A stretch of DNA of 64,000 nucleotides from Paenibacillus sp. V4I3. Lineage in GTDB: Bacteria; Bacillota; Bacilli; Paenibacillales; NBRC-103111. The notes beneath the pieces were generated by a model. The model did no database searches, was not told the origin of the DNA, and saw only the letters and a list, made by a program, of their open reading frames with translations. Positions within the stretch are counted from its first letter, which is position 1, and each line of letters starts with the position of its first letter. Location of the stretch: the NCBI RefSeq assembly GCF_030817215.1, contig NZ_JAUSZA010000001.1:1008501-1072500 (forward strand), read 5' to 3'. Below, in pieces: positions 50,697 to 57,593 of this stretch. A program made the translations under genes and the position numbers.

Positions 50697-51956
50697 CTAG
50701 GGAAACTGAACATAAAACGAAGTAGTCTCATTCAGCACGCTTTTCGCGTAAATCTTTCCTTTATGCTGTTCGACAATTGATTTGGCTATAGCGAGTCCCA
50801 GGCCATATCCGCCATACTTGCGTGAACGAGATGAATCAGCGCGGAAGAAGCGGTCGAAGATTCTTTCTAGATGCTCTAGTGGGATGCCTTCGCCTGTATT
50901 GGTCACCTTTAGCATAATATCGTTATGACGCTTCTTTAAGGTGAGCGAGATAGATCCTTTAGGATTGGTGTATTTGATGGCATTATCCAAGAGAATCATG
51001 ACCACCTGCTTGATTTGCTCGCTGTTGCCGTGAAGGGGCAAGTTAGGTTCAATCTCGTAATTTAATGAAATATTTTTCTCGAACATAACGGCTTCCATCG
51101 TTAGAATGACGCTTTCAACGGATTCGCTCACGTTGAAGTTCGTGAAGATCATTCTTGCTCTGGAGTCATCCATTTCGGTTAGGTATAGGAGATCGTTGGT
51201 CAGCGTCTTCATTCTTTCCGTTTCCGATTTAATATGGTGCAACCACTTCGATTGATTGTGAATCGTATCTTCGCTATTGGATAAGAGAACGTCCGCATTG
51301 GTGTTAATGACGGCTAATGGCGTTTTCAATTCATGGGAAGCGTCGGCGATAAATTGCTTCTGTTTATTGAAGGCTTCTCTGACAGGAGCGATGGAGCGGT
51401 TCGCGAAAAATCGGCTCGTAAAGTAGATGACAATGAGCATAATCAATCCCACGACAGAGAACGTATACACGAGATTCGTAAGGATGTTCTGCCGAGCAGT
51501 GACGTCAAGGTATACAACGGAATACCCTGTGGCATTTTTCTGCACGATATAAGCCCATGAATTGCCATCTAGTTTAAATTGGCCGTCATCCGAGTTATTG
51601 GAGGCGGCTTTCTTTATCGCCAGGTCGTAGAACTCGGTGTCCATGTCAAATCGGGATTTGGTGGCTGTGATCTTCCACTGTGCGTCTGTTTGCAATAAGA
51701 AAGAGACTGAGCGTTCCGGCGACAGGTCGGCATTTACCTTGGACTCTTGTGGAGGATGATCCCCATCTGGTCGCGGCTCTCCCTTTTTTCCGCCAGGCTT
51801 GAGGTAGAAGTCGGATACTTTATGCAGCTCCATATCGATATCGCGCCGTACGTTCTGATAGGTAATCGTATAAATGGAAGCAAAGGCCAAGAGCATGATG
51901 AAGGAGATGATGACCAGGTTAGCGATAAGAAATCGATTGCGAAGCTTGCTGAACAT
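50697..51956 (-). CDS. Sensor histidine kinase of the VTC-operon system
   Basis: This 419-residue kinase has two helices (about 10-32 and 162-182) around an extracellular domain with a Lys/Gly/Pro-rich, acidic loop (PGGKKGEPRPDGDHPPQE). The kinase core has H208 in ADASHELKTPLAVI, MILLDNAIKYTN and YGLGLAIAKSIVEQH. ATG 51956 overlaps the regulator stop (TAATG) and follows GGAGGTG. It probably senses an envelope signal. The signal is not deducible. Confidence 0.93.
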   Translation of the reverse strand: MFSKLRNRFLIANLVIISFIMLLAFASIYTITYQNVRRDIDMELHKVSDFYLKPGGKKGEPRPDGDHPPQESKVNADLSPERSVSFLLQTDAQWKITATKSRFDMDTEFYDLAIKKAASNNSDDGQFKLDGNSWAYIVQKNATGYSVVYLDVTARQNILTNLVYTFSVVGLIMLIVIYFTSRFFANRSIAPVREAFNKQKQFIADASHELKTPLAVINTNADVLLSNSEDTIHNQSKWLHHIKSETERMKTLTNDLLYLTEMDDSRARMIFTNFNVSESVESVILTMEAVMFEKNISLNYEIEPNLPLHGNSEQIKQVVMILLDNAIKYTNPKGSISLTLKKRHNDIMLKVTNTGEGIPLEHLERIFDRFFRADSSRSRKYGGYGLGLAIAKSIVEQHKGKIYAKSVLNETTSFYVQFP

Positions 51957-52633
51957 TAGGTGGTCACCTCCAAAACATAGCCTACGCCTCTAATGGTGTT
52001 TATTCGGACCGATGAATTCAGAAAAGCAATTTTTTTCCTCAAAAAAGAGATGTAGACTTCCACGTTGTTATGTTCAACCTCGGAATCGAAGCCCCAGAGC
52101 TTTTCGATGATCTGTTCTTTCGATGTTACCGAAAGCTTCCTCGACATTAGCAGCTCCAGCAATTCGCTTTCTTTTAAAATCAGCTTGAGTTCCTTTCCTT
52201 TGCACGTAAGCTTGAGATTCCCCGTATTCAATTCGATATCTCCGAACTTTAACGCATCTTCGGGCATGACCTCGCCTTTGCGCCTTAAAGCCGCTCTAAT
52301 TCTCGCGAGCAGCTCCTCGGTCGAGAACGGTTTGGCAACATAGTCGTCAGCGCCGTAATCCAGACCTGAAATCTTATCGGATATTTCCCCTCTGGCTGTA
52401 AGCAGGATAACGGGAGTCGAAATCCCTTTGTTGCGAATCGTCTTCAATAAGGTGATGCCGTCCATCTCAGGCAACATAATGTCGAGCAATAACAGATCAT
52501 ATATGCCGCTTAATGCATTATCCAGCCCAGATTGGCCATCATGGACAGCGTCGACGGAGTAATTGTGTTTTTTTAAAATTTGGGTTAAAGCCTCCGCTAA
52601 ATGAACCTCATCTTCTACAATTAAAATTCTCAT
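51956..52633 (-). CDS. OmpR-family response regulator of the VTC-operon system
   Basis: This 225-residue regulator has EDE, phospho-acceptor D51 in LLLLDIMLPEMDG, and VAKPFSTEELLARIR. The winged helix ends in NTIRGVGYVLEV. ATG 52633 follows AGGGGAAG. An in-frame extension of 16 codons is less likely. It is the first gene of a two-gene operon, divergent from the VTC operon. The shared operator suggests that it controls both. Confidence 0.94.
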   Translation of the reverse strand: MRILIVEDEVHLAEALTQILKKHNYSVDAVHDGQSGLDNALSGIYDLLLLDIMLPEMDGITLLKTIRNKGISTPVILLTARGEISDKISGLDYGADDYVAKPFSTEELLARIRAALRRKGEVMPEDALKFGDIELNTGNLKLTCKGKELKLILKESELLELLMSRKLSVTSKEQIIEKLWGFDSEVEHNNVEVYISFLRKKIAFLNSSVRINTIRGVGYVLEVTT

Positions 52634-52687
52634 GATTGCTTCCCCTTTTTGTGTCAGTTTGGTAAAGCCACGCTGCTGCATGACTTC

Positions 52688-52801
52688 ATTATAGGGATCG
52701 AACCTTTAATCAAACTTAATCTTAACACTTGTCTAGAGCTTAATAAAAAATTTACATGAAATCCATCATTTAAGTTTCACTAAAGGTTCGAGGGCTAATA
52801 T
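52688..52801. promoter_or_regulatory. Mirror-image divergent promoters with operator arms
   Basis: CGAACCTTTA-nnn-AAACTTAA (52699-52719) is the inverse of TTAAGTTT-nnn-TAAAGGTTCG (52770-52790). Facing left, TATAAT (52693-52688) follows the arm. Facing right, TAATAT (52796-52801) follows at nearly the same distance. Neither has a good -35, and each arm covers the -35 zone. TTAAG/TTAAA half-sites recur every 10 bp, as for OmpR-type activators. Confidence 0.7.
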
Positions 52802-52850
52802 ACAGACATGAAGCAGCAAGCACTCGCAAAGGAGAAAGGGGAGCATCCCA

Positions 52851-53588
52851 ATGGCGATCGAAGTGTTCAACCGATATGAAAATAAATATCTGATGGATAG
52901 CAAAGCCTTTTACGTTATATATAACCGATTGCTTGAATATATGGAGCTCGATGAATACAACAAGAATGATAAGTTCTATTCGATAAGCAACATGTATTAC
53001 GATACCGAACATGATTCTTTAATCAGGAACAGCTTGGCGAAGCCAAAATACAGGGAGAAACTCCGAATAAGAGCCTACGGCATTCCTGAAGAAGATGGCA
53101 AGGTGTACTTGGAGCTTAAGAAAAAGGTGTTCGGTTTAGTGAACAAGCGAAGGACGGCGCTGAAGTTGAACGAGGCTTATGATTTTGTAAGCTCAGGTAT
53201 TGAGCCGGAATTCAAGACTTATATGAACAAGCAAGTCATCCAGGAAATCAAATACTTCCTTCAGCGATATGACCTGCAGCCCAAAGTGTTCCTGGCTTAT
53301 GACCGAATTGCGATGTTTTGCAAAAATAACCGGGATTTGCGGATTACTTTTGATACGAATATCCGATCTAGGCGGTATGACCTCAAGCTTGAAAGTGGGG
53401 ATCAAGGAGAATCGCTGATCAGCCGCGGGCAATGGTTAATGGAAGTGAAGGCGGAGAAAACGGTGCCCCTCTGGCTATCGAAAATGCTGTCTGAACACCA
53501 AATGTTTCGAACAAGCTTCTCCAAGTACGGTAATGAATACAAAAAAATGCGAAATGAAAGATTAGCGGGGGAGAGAATTCAATTATGA
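52851..53588 (+). CDS. VTC-domain polyphosphate polymerase-like protein
   Basis: This 245-residue protein has the VTC triphosphate-tunnel fold, with FNRYENKYLMD, YYDTEHDSLI, LRIRAYG, LELKKKV and MEVKAEKTVPLWL. In yeast Vtc4 this domain makes polyphosphate from ATP at the membrane. The basic and acidic tunnel residues seem present, so it may be active. There is no SPX domain. It overlaps the next gene by 4 nt. Confidence 0.88.
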   Translation: MAIEVFNRYENKYLMDSKAFYVIYNRLLEYMELDEYNKNDKFYSISNMYYDTEHDSLIRNSLAKPKYREKLRIRAYGIPEEDGKVYLELKKKVFGLVNKRRTALKLNEAYDFVSSGIEPEFKTYMNKQVIQEIKYFLQRYDLQPKVFLAYDRIAMFCKNNRDLRITFDTNIRSRRYDLKLESGDQGESLISRGQWLMEVKAEKTVPLWLSKMLSEHQMFRTSFSKYGNEYKKMRNERLAGERIQL

Positions 53589-54265
53589 TAGAATCCATTT
53601 TGGCTTCGGCTCAGGTAAGTTCGGACTTAACCTTAGTCAATGCGTTGTTAACTATCTTGATTTCTTTCGCACTAGGTGCGATTATCAGCTTCACTTATAT
53701 GAAAACTCAACCTATGTATAATCAGAGCTTCACTTTGACGATGATTGTATTGCCTGCGATCATAGCGGTTATCATCCTGTTGATCGGCAGCAACATAGCT
53801 AGAGCCTTTAGTCTTGCCGGAGCATTCTCCATTATTCGGTTCAGAAGCGCTCCCGGAGATCCGAAGGATATCGCGTTCGTCTTGTTTACGATGGCGGCTG
53901 GACTCGCATGTGGTGTCGGTTCATTCGGTTACGCGGTGCTATTCACAATTGCTCTTTGCTTATTAATGTTCTTCCTGAAAGCTATCAATTTTGGAGCAAA
54001 AAGATCCTCGCAGAAAATGCTGAAAGTAACAATCCCGGAAAATCTGGGGTACGAGGAAGCTTTTGATGAGATCTTCAAGACATTCAAGATTGATTATGAG
54101 TTGAGAAAGGTCAGAACCACCGAGCTGGGCAGTTTGTATGAGCTTGTATATCTGGTTACCATCGATCATCTCACGAACCAGAAAGAATTCCTCGATGCCG
54201 TCAGGTGCAGGAATGGAAACTTGGATATTACCCTAACGATGAGTCCAACCGCATCAGAATACTAA
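53585..54265 (+). CDS. DUF4956 membrane protein
   Basis: This 226-residue protein has four N-terminal helices with FSLAGAFSIIRFRSAPGD, KDIAFVLFTMAAGLACG, and a cytoplasmic alpha/beta tail. DUF4956 proteins commonly accompany VTC-domain proteins. A role as the membrane partner or channel for the polymerase is my inference. The ATG overlaps the VTC stop, so the two are coupled. Confidence 0.88.
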   Translation: MIESILASAQVSSDLTLVNALLTILISFALGAIISFTYMKTQPMYNQSFTLTMIVLPAIIAVIILLIGSNIARAFSLAGAFSIIRFRSAPGDPKDIAFVLFTMAAGLACGVGSFGYAVLFTIALCLLMFFLKAINFGAKRSSQKMLKVTIPENLGYEEAFDEIFKTFKIDYELRKVRTTELGSLYELVYLVTIDHLTNQKEFLDAVRCRNGNLDITLTMSPTASEY

Positions 54266-54286
54266 AATTAGAGAGGTAGATGAGAT

Positions 54287-56050
54287 ATGAAAAAACTTTT
54301 AATAACAAAACAAGCCGGTATAGTTCTATTATGTGCTGTTATAGCATCAGCATGCAGCGATCAAACCGCCACAACAAATTCCAATGCGGAGGCTTCTTCG
54401 ACAGCATCGGTTCAGTCTACGGCAGCCGCGTCAAGTACGAAAGCAGCCAGTACCGATCTAATCCAGAAGGTCGAGTATGCTGATGATGACAAGTACACGG
54501 ATTGGAGCTCGTCGAATCCGACCGAAATCAAGCTGAATGGTACCGGTGCAAGCATTAACGGTTCAGGGGCAGAGGTGAAGGAAAGTACGGTTTCGATCAC
54601 AGCGGCTGGAACCTATGTGGTGAGCGGGAAACTGGATAACGGTCAAATCGCGATCGACGTAAAGGATAAAGGAACCGTTCGTTTGGTATTAAACGGAGCG
54701 GAGATTTATAACAACAGTACCTCGGCTATCTTCGTCGAAGAAGCAGGGAAGACAATTATCTCGTTGCAAGAGGGAACAAATAACCTGGTCTCAGACGGAA
54801 AAACTTACGTCTACCCGGATGCGTCAACAGACGAACCCAATTCGGCTATCTTCAGCAAAGACGATCTTACGATCAATGGTGCCGGAAAGCTCGTCGTTCA
54901 AGGAAATTACAACAATGGTATCACCAGTAAGGATAAGCTGAAAATAACGGGAGGAACGCTTGATATTCATGCTATTGACGATGCACTTATGGGGCGCGAT
55001 TTAGTGGCTGTCCAAGAAGGCAGTATGACCATCGAAGCTGGCGGACACGGAATCAAAACAACGAAGGATACAGAGGGTTCCGAAGGTTACATTGACATTG
55101 CCGGCGGTTCGTTCAACATCAATTCCGGCGAAGATGCCTTGCATAGCAGCGGCGGTCTTCACATAAATGGGGGAGATATGCATATTAATGCCGGCGACGA
55201 TGGGATTAACGCGGAGGTCTCGATCGCTATCGCGGGAGGTACGATTGATATTGCCAAAAGCAATGAAGGGATCGAAGCCCCTACGGTCGTGATCTCAGAC
55301 GGTAAAACAAGTGTTGTCTCGAGTGATGACGGCGTGAATATCTCATCGGGAGATGCCGAAGCCGCTGGTGGAGGTGGGCCTGCTGGACCTGGTGGAAATC
55401 AATCCGGCGCGGCTTCAAGCAACAAACTTACGATTAGCGGAGGGAATCTTACTGTCGATTCGAAAGGCGATGGTTTAGATTCGAACGGTTCGATTGCAAT
55501 GACCGGCGGTACCGTTATCGTTAACGGTCCAACTGAGAACGGCAATGGCCCCTTGGATTACGACGGGACATTCGTAATGACGGGTGGATTCCTGGTTGCC
55601 GCAGGCAGCTCCGGCATGGCGCAAGCTACATCCGAGCAATCGACACAGCCAGGCGTTCTGATGACCTACTCGAAAGCGCAGCAAGCAGGCGCTATGGTTC
55701 ATCTGGAAGATAGCGATGGCAATACGGTTCTAACATTTACTCCACCGAAAAGCTATCAGTCTTTGTTCGTCAGCTCCCCGACAATCAAGAAGGATGCTTC
55801 ATATACGCTTAGCTCGGGAGGAACGTCGACTGGTAGTCAAGTGAACGGTCTCTATGACGGCGGCAAGTACCAAGGGGGGACGAAGGTGGTTGATTTTACA
55901 ACCTCGAGTGTCATAACCTGGTTGTCCGAATCGGGTGTGACCGCGGCAAGAAGCGGGATGGGAGGCCCCGGCGGCAATCGAGGACAGGGCGGAGGCAGAG
56001 GTGGAATGCCACCAGCAGGTGGTGGAGAACCGCCGCAAAAGACGCAGTAA
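54287..56050 (+). CDS. Beta-helix carbohydrate-binding lipoprotein (Cthe_2159-like)
   Basis: This 587-residue protein has a signal peptide with lipobox IASAC (Cys23), a Ser/Ala/Thr-rich linker, and a beta-helix of regular rungs (GTLDIHAIDDALMGRD, GDMHINAGDDGINAE, SKGDGLDSNGSIAMTGG). The Asp/Gly repeats fit calcium- and polysaccharide-binding proteins of the Cthe_2159 type. A Gly/Pro-rich tail (GGRGGMPPAGGG) ends it. It is third in the operon and probably acts at the cell surface. Confidence 0.85.
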   Translation: MKKLLITKQAGIVLLCAVIASACSDQTATTNSNAEASSTASVQSTAAASSTKAASTDLIQKVEYADDDKYTDWSSSNPTEIKLNGTGASINGSGAEVKESTVSITAAGTYVVSGKLDNGQIAIDVKDKGTVRLVLNGAEIYNNSTSAIFVEEAGKTIISLQEGTNNLVSDGKTYVYPDASTDEPNSAIFSKDDLTINGAGKLVVQGNYNNGITSKDKLKITGGTLDIHAIDDALMGRDLVAVQEGSMTIEAGGHGIKTTKDTEGSEGYIDIAGGSFNINSGEDALHSSGGLHINGGDMHINAGDDGINAEVSIAIAGGTIDIAKSNEGIEAPTVVISDGKTSVVSSDDGVNISSGDAEAAGGGGPAGPGGNQSGAASSNKLTISGGNLTVDSKGDGLDSNGSIAMTGGTVIVNGPTENGNGPLDYDGTFVMTGGFLVAAGSSGMAQATSEQSTQPGVLMTYSKAQQAGAMVHLEDSDGNTVLTFTPPKSYQSLFVSSPTIKKDASYTLSSGGTSTGSQVNGLYDGGKYQGGTKVVDFTTSSVITWLSESGVTAARSGMGGPGGNRGQGGGRGGMPPAGGGEPPQKTQ

Positions 56051-56714: not shown

Positions 56715-56846
56715 GTAGTTAGTAGGGGTAAAGATAGGGAATTTTGCAATCTTTATGAAAAATTAACCAAATTTAATAAAAAGGTACTATTAATTAAAGA
56801 AATTACATTGTATAATTTAGCCATTATTGAGAGATGGGGTCGAAAT

Positions 56847-57179
56847 ATGTCGTCACTTTTGCAAAAGCAAAACTTAACAACGGAGCAACTTCAATTACTT
56901 GCATCCGAGATGAGTAAGAAACAAAAAACGGGTGGTATTGCTTGGTTACTTTGGTTCTTTACAGGTGGTATCGGAGGGCACCGTTTTTACCTAGGCAGAG
57001 TTGGAACAGGGGTTGCCATGTTACTTACGCTTGGTGGATTAGGAATATGGACATTAATTGACTTATTTCTTTTGTCCGGTATGATTAAGGATACCAATGA
57101 AAAGATTGAGAATGAGATCCTTTCTGAGCTTCGTCTGATTAGTCAAGCAAGAGCTAACTCAGAAGTAGCCGCGGGATAG
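56847..57179 (+). CDS. TM2 domain protein 1
   Basis: This 110-residue membrane protein has an N-terminal soluble helix (LTTEQLQLLASEMSKK) and a TM2 domain with FFTGGIGGHRFYLGRVGTG and WTLIDLFLL. The ATG is at 56847. The frame extends to TTG 56808, but this overlaps a TATAAT at 56811-56816 that is a candidate -10. The function is unknown. A related gene follows. Confidence 0.85.
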   Translation: MSSLLQKQNLTTEQLQLLASEMSKKQKTGGIAWLLWFFTGGIGGHRFYLGRVGTGVAMLLTLGGLGIWTLIDLFLLSGMIKDTNEKIENEILSELRLISQARANSEVAAG

Positions 57180-57197
57180 GTTTACGAGTATAAGAAA

Positions 57198-57593
57198 ATG
57201 GATAACTTACAATTATTGCGCACTTTAACTTTGGAAGAGCTAGGCATATTAGAGGCAGAATTACTCAAAAAGCGAAAATCTAAAGAAGCAGTTTGGGGCC
57301 TTTGGGCAGGATTACACTTCTTTGGTGCTCACAGGTTCTATACTGAAAACTATTTGTATGCAAGCATAATGTTTGCGACTACATTTGTTCCAAGTATCGC
57401 CATAATTTTATTAGCTGTTTACACTGATTTAGAATCGTTCAATTACTTCATGTTGTGGGTGCTCATCTTCATACTAAGCGGATCCTTACTTTGGAGTTGG
57501 ATAGATGCTTTTTTCCTAAATAAGCGTATAGAAGAAATGAACCATGAGCAGGAACGGAATATCATTCATCGAATTAAAGGAATGGATCATTAA
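57198..57593 (+). CDS. TM2 domain protein 2
   Basis: This 131-residue protein shares the plan of the gene 18 bp upstream. It has an N-terminal helix (LTLEELGILEAELLKKRK) and TM2 helices with GLHFFGAHRFYTENY and WSWIDAFFLNKR. The extra middle helix is longer. The pair looks like an old tandem duplication that has diverged strongly. A terminator follows. Confidence 0.83.
   Translation: MDNLQLLRTLTLEELGILEAELLKKRKSKEAVWGLWAGLHFFGAHRFYTENYLYASIMFATTFVPSIAIILLAVYTDLESFNYFMLWVLIFILSGSLLWSWIDAFFLNKRIEEMNHEQERNIIHRIKGMDH

Follow-up and report, generated by a model that had tools for sequence, protein, structure and literature searches.

The locus and its genes

This report concerns the spacer between a two-component gene pair and a divergent operon headed by a gene for a VTC-domain protein in Paenibacillus sp. 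V4I3. The stretch of DNA analysed (the window, 64,000 nucleotides; NZ_JAUSZA010000001.1, positions 1,008,501 to 1,072,500) belongs to a single-contig genome of 8.17 Mb. A sensor histidine kinase and an OmpR/PhoB-type response regulator (RR) are encoded on one side of the spacer. On the other side lie the genes of the VTC-domain protein, a DUF4956 membrane protein and a Cthe_2159-family protein (Table 1). An original prediction, made from the letters of the window, had described the spacer as a pair of mirror-image promoters through which the regulator activates both transcription units; its interval (52688-56050) left the two-component genes themselves (50697-52633) outside.

Table 1. Genes and promoter elements of the locus, in window coordinates
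Feature	Position	Strand	Basis
Sensor histidine kinase, 419 aa	50697..51956	-	Pfam HisKA + HATPase_c
OmpR/PhoB-type response regulator (RR), 225 aa	51956..52633	-	Pfam Response_reg + Trans_reg_C
RR operon -10, TATAAT, 10 nt from box	52693-52688	-	Sequence and relatives
RR-side operator ATTAAG-TTTGA-TTAAAG	52720-52704	-	Pattern and relatives
VTC-side operator TTTAAG-TTTCA-CTAAAG	52769-52785	+	Pattern and relatives
VTC operon -10, TAATAT (TAAGAT commonest in relatives)	52796-52801	+	Sequence and relatives
VTC-domain protein, 245 aa, soluble, polyphosphate-polymerase-like	52851..53588	+	Pfam VTC 4.4e-52
DUF4956 membrane protein, C-terminal ferredoxin/ACT-like domain	53585..54265	+	Pfam DUF4956 4.5e-16; model
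Cthe_2159-family protein, 587 aa	54287..56050	+	Pfam Cthe_2159 5e-79; PDB 4peu E 3.9e-41

The hydropathy profile of the kinase shows two transmembrane-like stretches on either side of a loop of about 120 residues, which is presumably extracytoplasmic. The RR most likely starts at the ATG at 52633 and not at the ATG at 52681, since the family profiles align only from residue 17 onward in the longer open reading frame (ORF), the upstream ATG falls between this residue and the -10, and the sequence AAAGGGG stands just upstream of 52633. The VTC protein has no transmembrane-like stretch by hydropathy, and the Cthe_2159-family protein has a lipoprotein-like N-terminus (ASAC, by eye). Two neighbouring genes for TM2-domain proteins lie 3' of the VTC operon (56808-57593).

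Two tandem boxes at divergent promoters

Both promoters share the layout NTTAAG-N5-NTAAAG-N10-(-10). On the RR side (minus strand) it reads ATTAAG-TTTGA-TTAAAG-GTTCGATCCC-TATAAT, on the VTC side (plus strand) TTTAAG-TTTCA-CTAAAG-GTTCGAGGGC-TAATAT, and no good -35 is visible by eye. The original prediction had placed the two arms at exactly these positions, with half-sites followed by a -10 in each direction. This layout holds, with the refinement that every arm is itself a tandem direct repeat with a period of about 11 bp, upstream of the -10. Its estimate of 18 matches in 21 between the inverted arms was slightly low: without gaps, the top 21-nt inverted pair of the spacer agrees at 19 positions, where 200 dinucleotide shuffles gave maxima of 12-16, and the mirror similarity reaches 48 nt at 77%. 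The stretch AAAGGTTCGA, which it had taken as a shared element, is conserved in part: only AAAGGTT on the VTC side and AAAGGT on the RR side are nearly invariant in relatives. Across the whole genome, exact matches to the pattern of box and -10 are confined to these two places; with up to one mismatch there are four places, and a reversed-pattern control also gives four. The paired operators are real and lie far above chance.

The boxes are kept among relatives. Named genomes were scanned for relatives of the VTC protein. The scan yielded 133, and the 80 best of them, together with the window and four loci from the genus, make up a set of 85 loci; in 78 of these (the window and 77 relatives) the RR gene is divergent from VTC. 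The seven others comprise two loci at contig ends (L047, L092), one too short to include an RR (L011), one inverted (L096) and three with no neighbouring RR (L061, L082, L101). All 78 divergent spacers have a perfect core, TTAAG-N6-TAAAGGT, on the VTC side; on the RR side the core is perfect in 70 and has one mismatch in 8. On the plus strand of shuffled spacers it was found in 0 of 15,600. Six of the seven non-divergent loci also have a perfect core at the VTC promoter, and the seventh, L082, has a variant there that reads by eye as TTTAAG-CTTCA-TTTAAGG. Loss of the arms where the gene pair is kept, the outcome against which the original prediction could be judged, was thus looked for directly, and the idea survived.

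In the 78 loci most box positions carry 1-2 bits of information, a few variable ones less. In the flank, between 40 and 2 nt before the box, no position exceeds 0.5 bit at VTC promoters or 0.3 bit at RR promoters. A distance of 10 nt between box and best -10 is seen in 70 of the 78 loci for VTC and likewise in 70 for the RR. This -10 is mostly TAAGAT, off consensus, for VTC and mostly TATAAT for the RR, a difference that would fit a basal level of regulator and an activator-dependent target. Conservation in the VTC -10/start region (52796-52815) continues past the -10, reading TAAGATACAGACAT in relatives, and 20-26 nt before the VTC box there is an A-rich tract (52743-52749).

Co-occurrence of box, regulator and VTC

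Among 30 genomes of the genus, the RR (E<=1e-85) and a close VTC are present in an identical set of 13; two further genomes carry a distant VTC only (25-27% identity). Among 104 genomes of the family, genus included, and with E<1e-100 for each protein, 28 have both, 6 have VTC only, 2 have the RR only and 68 have neither. The co-occurrence was checked by a Fisher test, a statistic that ignores shared ancestry. When these 104 genomes were searched for the box with up to one mismatch, 68 of them proved to have it, at 121 places in all (summed by hand), and the reversed pattern gave no match in any of the 104. When coordinates were compared by hand, a box was found at VTC in all 28 genomes with the RR and a close VTC, as against none of the six with a close VTC and no RR (L298-L303).

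The VTC promoters of these six are not featureless. They carry three to six TTCAG units (at least four of five bases matching) in exact 11-bp register, ending before a -10-like hexamer. The same operon may therein have been handed to another OmpR-type regulator. This apparent operator swap, in which one operon is found under either of two codes, has the look of a tidy case of regulatory rewiring in nature. In the two genomes that have the RR and no close VTC, another gene takes the divergent place opposite the RR, and a box faces it; this gene encodes a YceI protein in G053 and a DUF4405 protein in G058.

Other genes preceded by a box

By position, 34 of the 121 box places are RR or VTC promoters. 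These were set aside, and the other 87 were taken in 85 stretches, which on rescanning gave 89 boxes, two of them counted twice through overlap. When the first downstream ORFs were clustered, with Pfam names taken from cluster representatives only, 38 boxes preceded HtrA-like proteases, 9 VTC, 7 NAGPA, 5 the RR (one of these, L200, belonging to an RR relative of 56% identity) and 4 CotH. Seven more stood before sulfatase-domain proteins in two clusters, which we take to be lipoteichoic acid (LTA) synthase-like, 11 before singletons (YceI and DUF4405 included) and 8 before no ORF. A third box at the inverted locus (L096:219-2634) faces a row of DUF4405, unknown and PspA genes, an envelope-stress-like target.

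These classes differ in the company they keep. All four CotH boxes lie in genomes with the RR and a close VTC (G035, G054, G077, G100), and six of the seven NAGPA boxes lie in RR genomes. The corresponding figures are 1 of 7 for the sulfatase boxes and 7 of 38 for the HtrA boxes, the other 31 of which occur in genomes without a window-type RR. The boxes can also be sorted by whether the second half-site has A, T or C as its third base (87 distinct boxes, some VTC and RR promoters still included). TTAAAG (A-type) boxes lie in RR genomes in 23 of 25 cases and TTTAAG (T-type) boxes in 17 of 61, with a single C-type box; the TTAAAG subtype therefore goes with the window-type RR. The HtrA boxes probably belong to another CiaR-like regulator. 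In Streptococcus pneumoniae CiaR activates htrA, as reviewed in PMC12826053, and the family data suggest a second CiaR-like regulon with htrA, as in streptococci. At the HtrA genes themselves, which are spread across Paenibacillaceae (38 loci among L165-L242, e.g. L166:401-432), the box is near-canonical for CiaR, TTAAG-N5-TTTAAGGTT, and accompanies an off-consensus -10 (CAATAT or similar).

A wider regulon in the window's own genome was considered and rejected: there is no third site at zero mismatch, the one-mismatch search equals its control, and another pattern at up to three mismatches gives six places as against seven in the control. The sole CotH match of this genome (G000), at 4618404, has no half-site pair in the 2 kb around its start (L243). 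When the window was searched by tblastn at E<=1e-5 for counterparts of the other box-bearing genes, HtrA was matched, and NAGPA, CotH, LTA-synthase-like, DUF4405 and YceI genes were not. A TTCAG-variant box with a good -10 is present at G000:C1:1574455-1574486 and also in G010, G025, G026 and G029, all of the same genus. No ORF of at least 60 aa starts within 260 bp of the G000 site; four of the five sites lack a downstream ORF of 60 aa, and G025 has only one of 68 aa. These sites are possibly promoters of an RNA gene.

What the VTC operon may make

The VTC protein scores 177.4 bits against its Pfam profile (cut-off 23) and matches yeast Vtc4 structures (PDB 3g3q and others) at a profile E of 2e-7. 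Residues K12, R72, R74, K90, R152 and R164 align to basic residues of Vtc4, which presumably line its tunnel, and are invariant in 25 relatives; E198, K200 and K225, outside the Vtc4-aligned stretch, are invariant in the same sequences. Unlike Vtc4, with which it shares the VTC domain and these basic residues, the protein is a stand-alone soluble one, its membrane part being the separate DUF4956 protein, and it is a putative polymerase.

The DUF4956 protein is weakly MgtC-like. The Pfam MgtC profile gives 9.6 bits (E 1.6), below its cut-off of 31.4; among 55 relatives, 44 match MgtC at E up to 10, the best at 7e-6. A first structural model, built from 24 sequences, had pLDDT 64.6 and pTM 0.42, and a second, from 55 sequences, pLDDT 73.7 and pTM 0.56, with five long helices and a ferredoxin/ACT-like domain. 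Foldseek returned no match at E<=0.001 for either. The C-terminal ACT-like domain of Mycobacterium tuberculosis MgtC (2lqj) aligns with the model over 88 residues (Z 9.8, root-mean-square deviation 3.2), a likeness that concerns the C-terminal domain only and is tied with many ferredoxin-like folds. The third product belongs to the Cthe_2159 family (PF14262, 265.7 bits against a cut-off of 25.8), like the protein of Clostridium thermocellum, to which we take PDB entries 4peu and 4phb to belong. The window member differs from the latter in that it lies in an operon with VTC and DUF4956.

A phosphate-polymer role for this operon is plausible on these comparisons. A serious rival, to which we give a lower but substantial chance, is that the product is not polyphosphate and that VTC, DUF4956 and CotH serve an exopolysaccharide or a protein-phosphorylation system. 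Among distant VTC loci, DUF4956 adjoins VTC in all 25 examined, and a CotH-profile match stands alongside in 23 (L278-L297, L304-L306; four of these weak, 24-29 bits), the two without one being the short loci L020 and L021. Three such VTC-DUF4956-CotH trios were viewed in 19 kb of context. One of them, L317 (Paenibacillaceae), lies near below-cut-off PelG genes and a gene with DUF3492 and glycosyltransferase matches, which we take to be PelF-like, a neighbourhood that favours the rival; around the other two, L316 and L318, no Pel gene turned up in the ORFs scanned (5 of 14 and 5 of 13).

Genes for CotH, a polyphosphate polymerase and DUF4956 are described beside pel clusters in PMC7112168, and in Streptococcus intermedius mutants in the genes of CotH and of an MgtC/ACT protein are reported to alter Pel level and aggregation (PMC12345266). 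The latter paper reports no such trio away from Pel loci, a finding from which L316 and L318 may differ. The window operon resembles these Gram-positive Pel accessory genes in the pairing of a VTC-type protein with DUF4956, CotH being tied to it by the operons of distant relatives or, in some relatives, by a shared box. It differs from them in that a Cthe_2159 lipoprotein takes the place of CotH, a dedicated two-component system is attached, and no CotH or Pel neighbour was found. No CotH gene adjoins VTC and DUF4956 at the window operon, and no Pel gene was detected among nine window proteins scanned. The lack of Pel genes among the proteins scanned here and around L316 and L318, and the invariance of the Vtc4-aligned basic residues, argue against the rival. 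In the open-access literature we found no report naming DUF4956 together with VTC, or a Paenibacillus two-component system with a VTC-domain protein.

Proposed regulatory model and alternatives

We propose that the sensor kinase and the OmpR/PhoB-type regulator form an autoregulated switch that controls itself and the divergent VTC-DUF4956-Cthe_2159 operon, a reading to which we assign a probability of about 0.8. The phosphorylated regulator would bind the tandem 11-bp half-sites NTTAAG-N5-NTAAAG, which would replace the -35 at both promoters. Bound there, it would recruit RNA polymerase to each, every box serving its own promoter. The operon would most likely make or handle a phosphate-rich polymer at the membrane, in which VTC would be the polymerase in the cytosol, DUF4956 its MgtC-like partner in the membrane and the Cthe_2159 protein a lipoprotein on the outer face. 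The sequences show the anatomy of the locus, its conservation, the co-occurrence of RR and VTC and the association of box with regulator, while binding, activation, signal and product are our inferences. The regulatory reading of the shared operator is well supported by the comparisons: the boxes are conserved, the regulator and a close VTC occupy the same 13 genomes out of 30 in the genus, and the presence of a box at VTC follows the RR. In this respect the original prediction, that the regulator governs its own and the VTC operon, is supported; its single mirror-image element is not.

Several observations weigh against this proposal. A box is retained at VTC in P. pini (L061) and P. daejeonensis (L101), yet no RR was found in their genomes at E<=1e-60, and boxes also stand upstream of their cotH genes (L125; L124 and L127). 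Brevibacillus migulae (L082) has its variant box at VTC and no adjacent RR, as judged from the locus only. In G021 the RR lies 1.8 kb from VTC with no core within 1.5 kb upstream of it, and in G053 the upstream region of the RR shows no match better than three mismatches. The case of G058 as an RR genome without VTC is weak, the assembly being 78% complete and a distant VTC present. At most 28 candidates were scored per genome in the RR calls on the 104 genomes, so absence of the RR is uncertain, and the co-occurrence counts take no account of shared ancestry. Finally, similar boxes are apparently served by CiaR-like regulators in the family, and the pairing of regulator to box is a putative one.

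Some box-bearing genes may indeed answer to a related regulator, and seven weaker RR relatives (E 1e-60 to 1e-86) are present in family genomes. Taken further, the boxes might be read mainly by another CiaR-like regulator encoded elsewhere, the neighbouring two-component genes being merely one more target. P. pini and P. daejeonensis, the RR promoters of G021 and G053, and the HtrA-type boxes of genomes without a window-type RR would all fit this. The distribution of the box at VTC, present in all 28 genomes that have the RR and absent from the 6 that lack it, does not, and neither do the link of the TTAAAG subtype to RR genomes, the box at the RR's own promoter in 78 divergent loci or the identical distribution of RR and close VTC in the genus. 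We regard this explanation as improbable.

Slightly less probable still is repression of both promoters. The box overlaps the polymerase-binding region, a position compatible with a repressor, but the lack of a good -35 and the off-consensus VTC -10 (TAAGAT) speak for an activator, and the same geometry is activating for CiaR (PMC3091779).

Least credible is one mirror-image palindromic operator, on both arms of which the regulator would loop the spacer and couple the promoters: the 48-nt mirror similarity and the mostly short spacers (median 233 bp in the 78 loci) are in its favour, but spacer lengths range from 157 to 1404 bp, boxes without a mirror partner precede cotH or NAGPA genes in relatives, and the boxes keep to their own genes in inverted L096, so that a single looping palindrome can be dismissed. 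At that locus (P. pinistramenti) the two-component genes are inverted to the same direction as VTC, and both RR and VTC retain the box. Each box likewise stays beside its own gene in the long spacers of L030 (806 bp) and L091 (1404 bp). The mirror arms that the original prediction had seen are present, and are more readily understood as two separate copies of a single operator than as one palindrome.

A broader picture is possible, though as a whole we hold it unlikely. An envelope-signal regulon of Paenibacillaceae would run a VTC complex in which cytosolic VTC feeds polyphosphate or a phosphorylated polymer through the MgtC-like DUF4956 protein to the Cthe_2159 lipoprotein at the surface and, in some species, to a co-regulated CotH kinase, the operon having been rewired between two OmpR-type regulators with TTAAG and TTCAG operators. 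Bacterial VTC, DUF4956 and CotH proteins are poorly understood, and a tight operator common to many species offers a handle on the inducer of the operon and on its member genes, hence on the product of the module.

Comparison with CiaRH and other OmpR-type systems

The system is of an ordinary kind, an autoregulated two-component switch; its operator is uncommonly clean and its target module interesting. It has the features of the OmpR/PhoB family, namely a receiver with Trans_reg_C, a kinase with HisKA/HATPase_c, and a tandem operator with a period of about 11 bp upstream of the -10. Among the open-access papers listed by a search, none was seen from its title or the opening of its abstract to link CiaR to VTC or CotH. 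The nearest known systems are CiaRH of streptococci and the CiaRH-like pair BAS0540/0541 of Bacillus anthracis, which binds such boxes, its own promoter included (PMC4938410). All three are OmpR-type pairs with tandem TTAAG-type half-sites separated by N5. As with BAS0540, the box stands at the regulator's own promoter, binding having been shown for BAS0540 and the window system being known from its sequence.

PMC3091779 gives the CiaR box as TTTAAG-N5-TTTAAG, with NTTAAG-N5-TTTAAG as the revised form, and places it ten bases upstream of the -10. The same 10 nt separate box and -10 on both sides of the window spacer and on each side in 70 of 78 loci among relatives. The predicted recognition helix of the RR, NVEVYISFLRKKI, is identical to that of CiaR, VVEVYVSKVRKKL in the same source, at 8 of 13 positions counted by eye. 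The second half-site differs. Its third T is invariant in streptococcal csRNA promoters (PMC3091779), whereas here the half-site is mostly TTAAAG or CTAAAG, with NTAAAG in 78 of 78 VTC-side boxes. The targets differ too, being VTC-DUF4956-Cthe_2159 and, in some relatives, also cotH and NAGPA. Because the second half-site differs, the window system is not assigned to CiaRH; it would nevertheless work like CiaRH.

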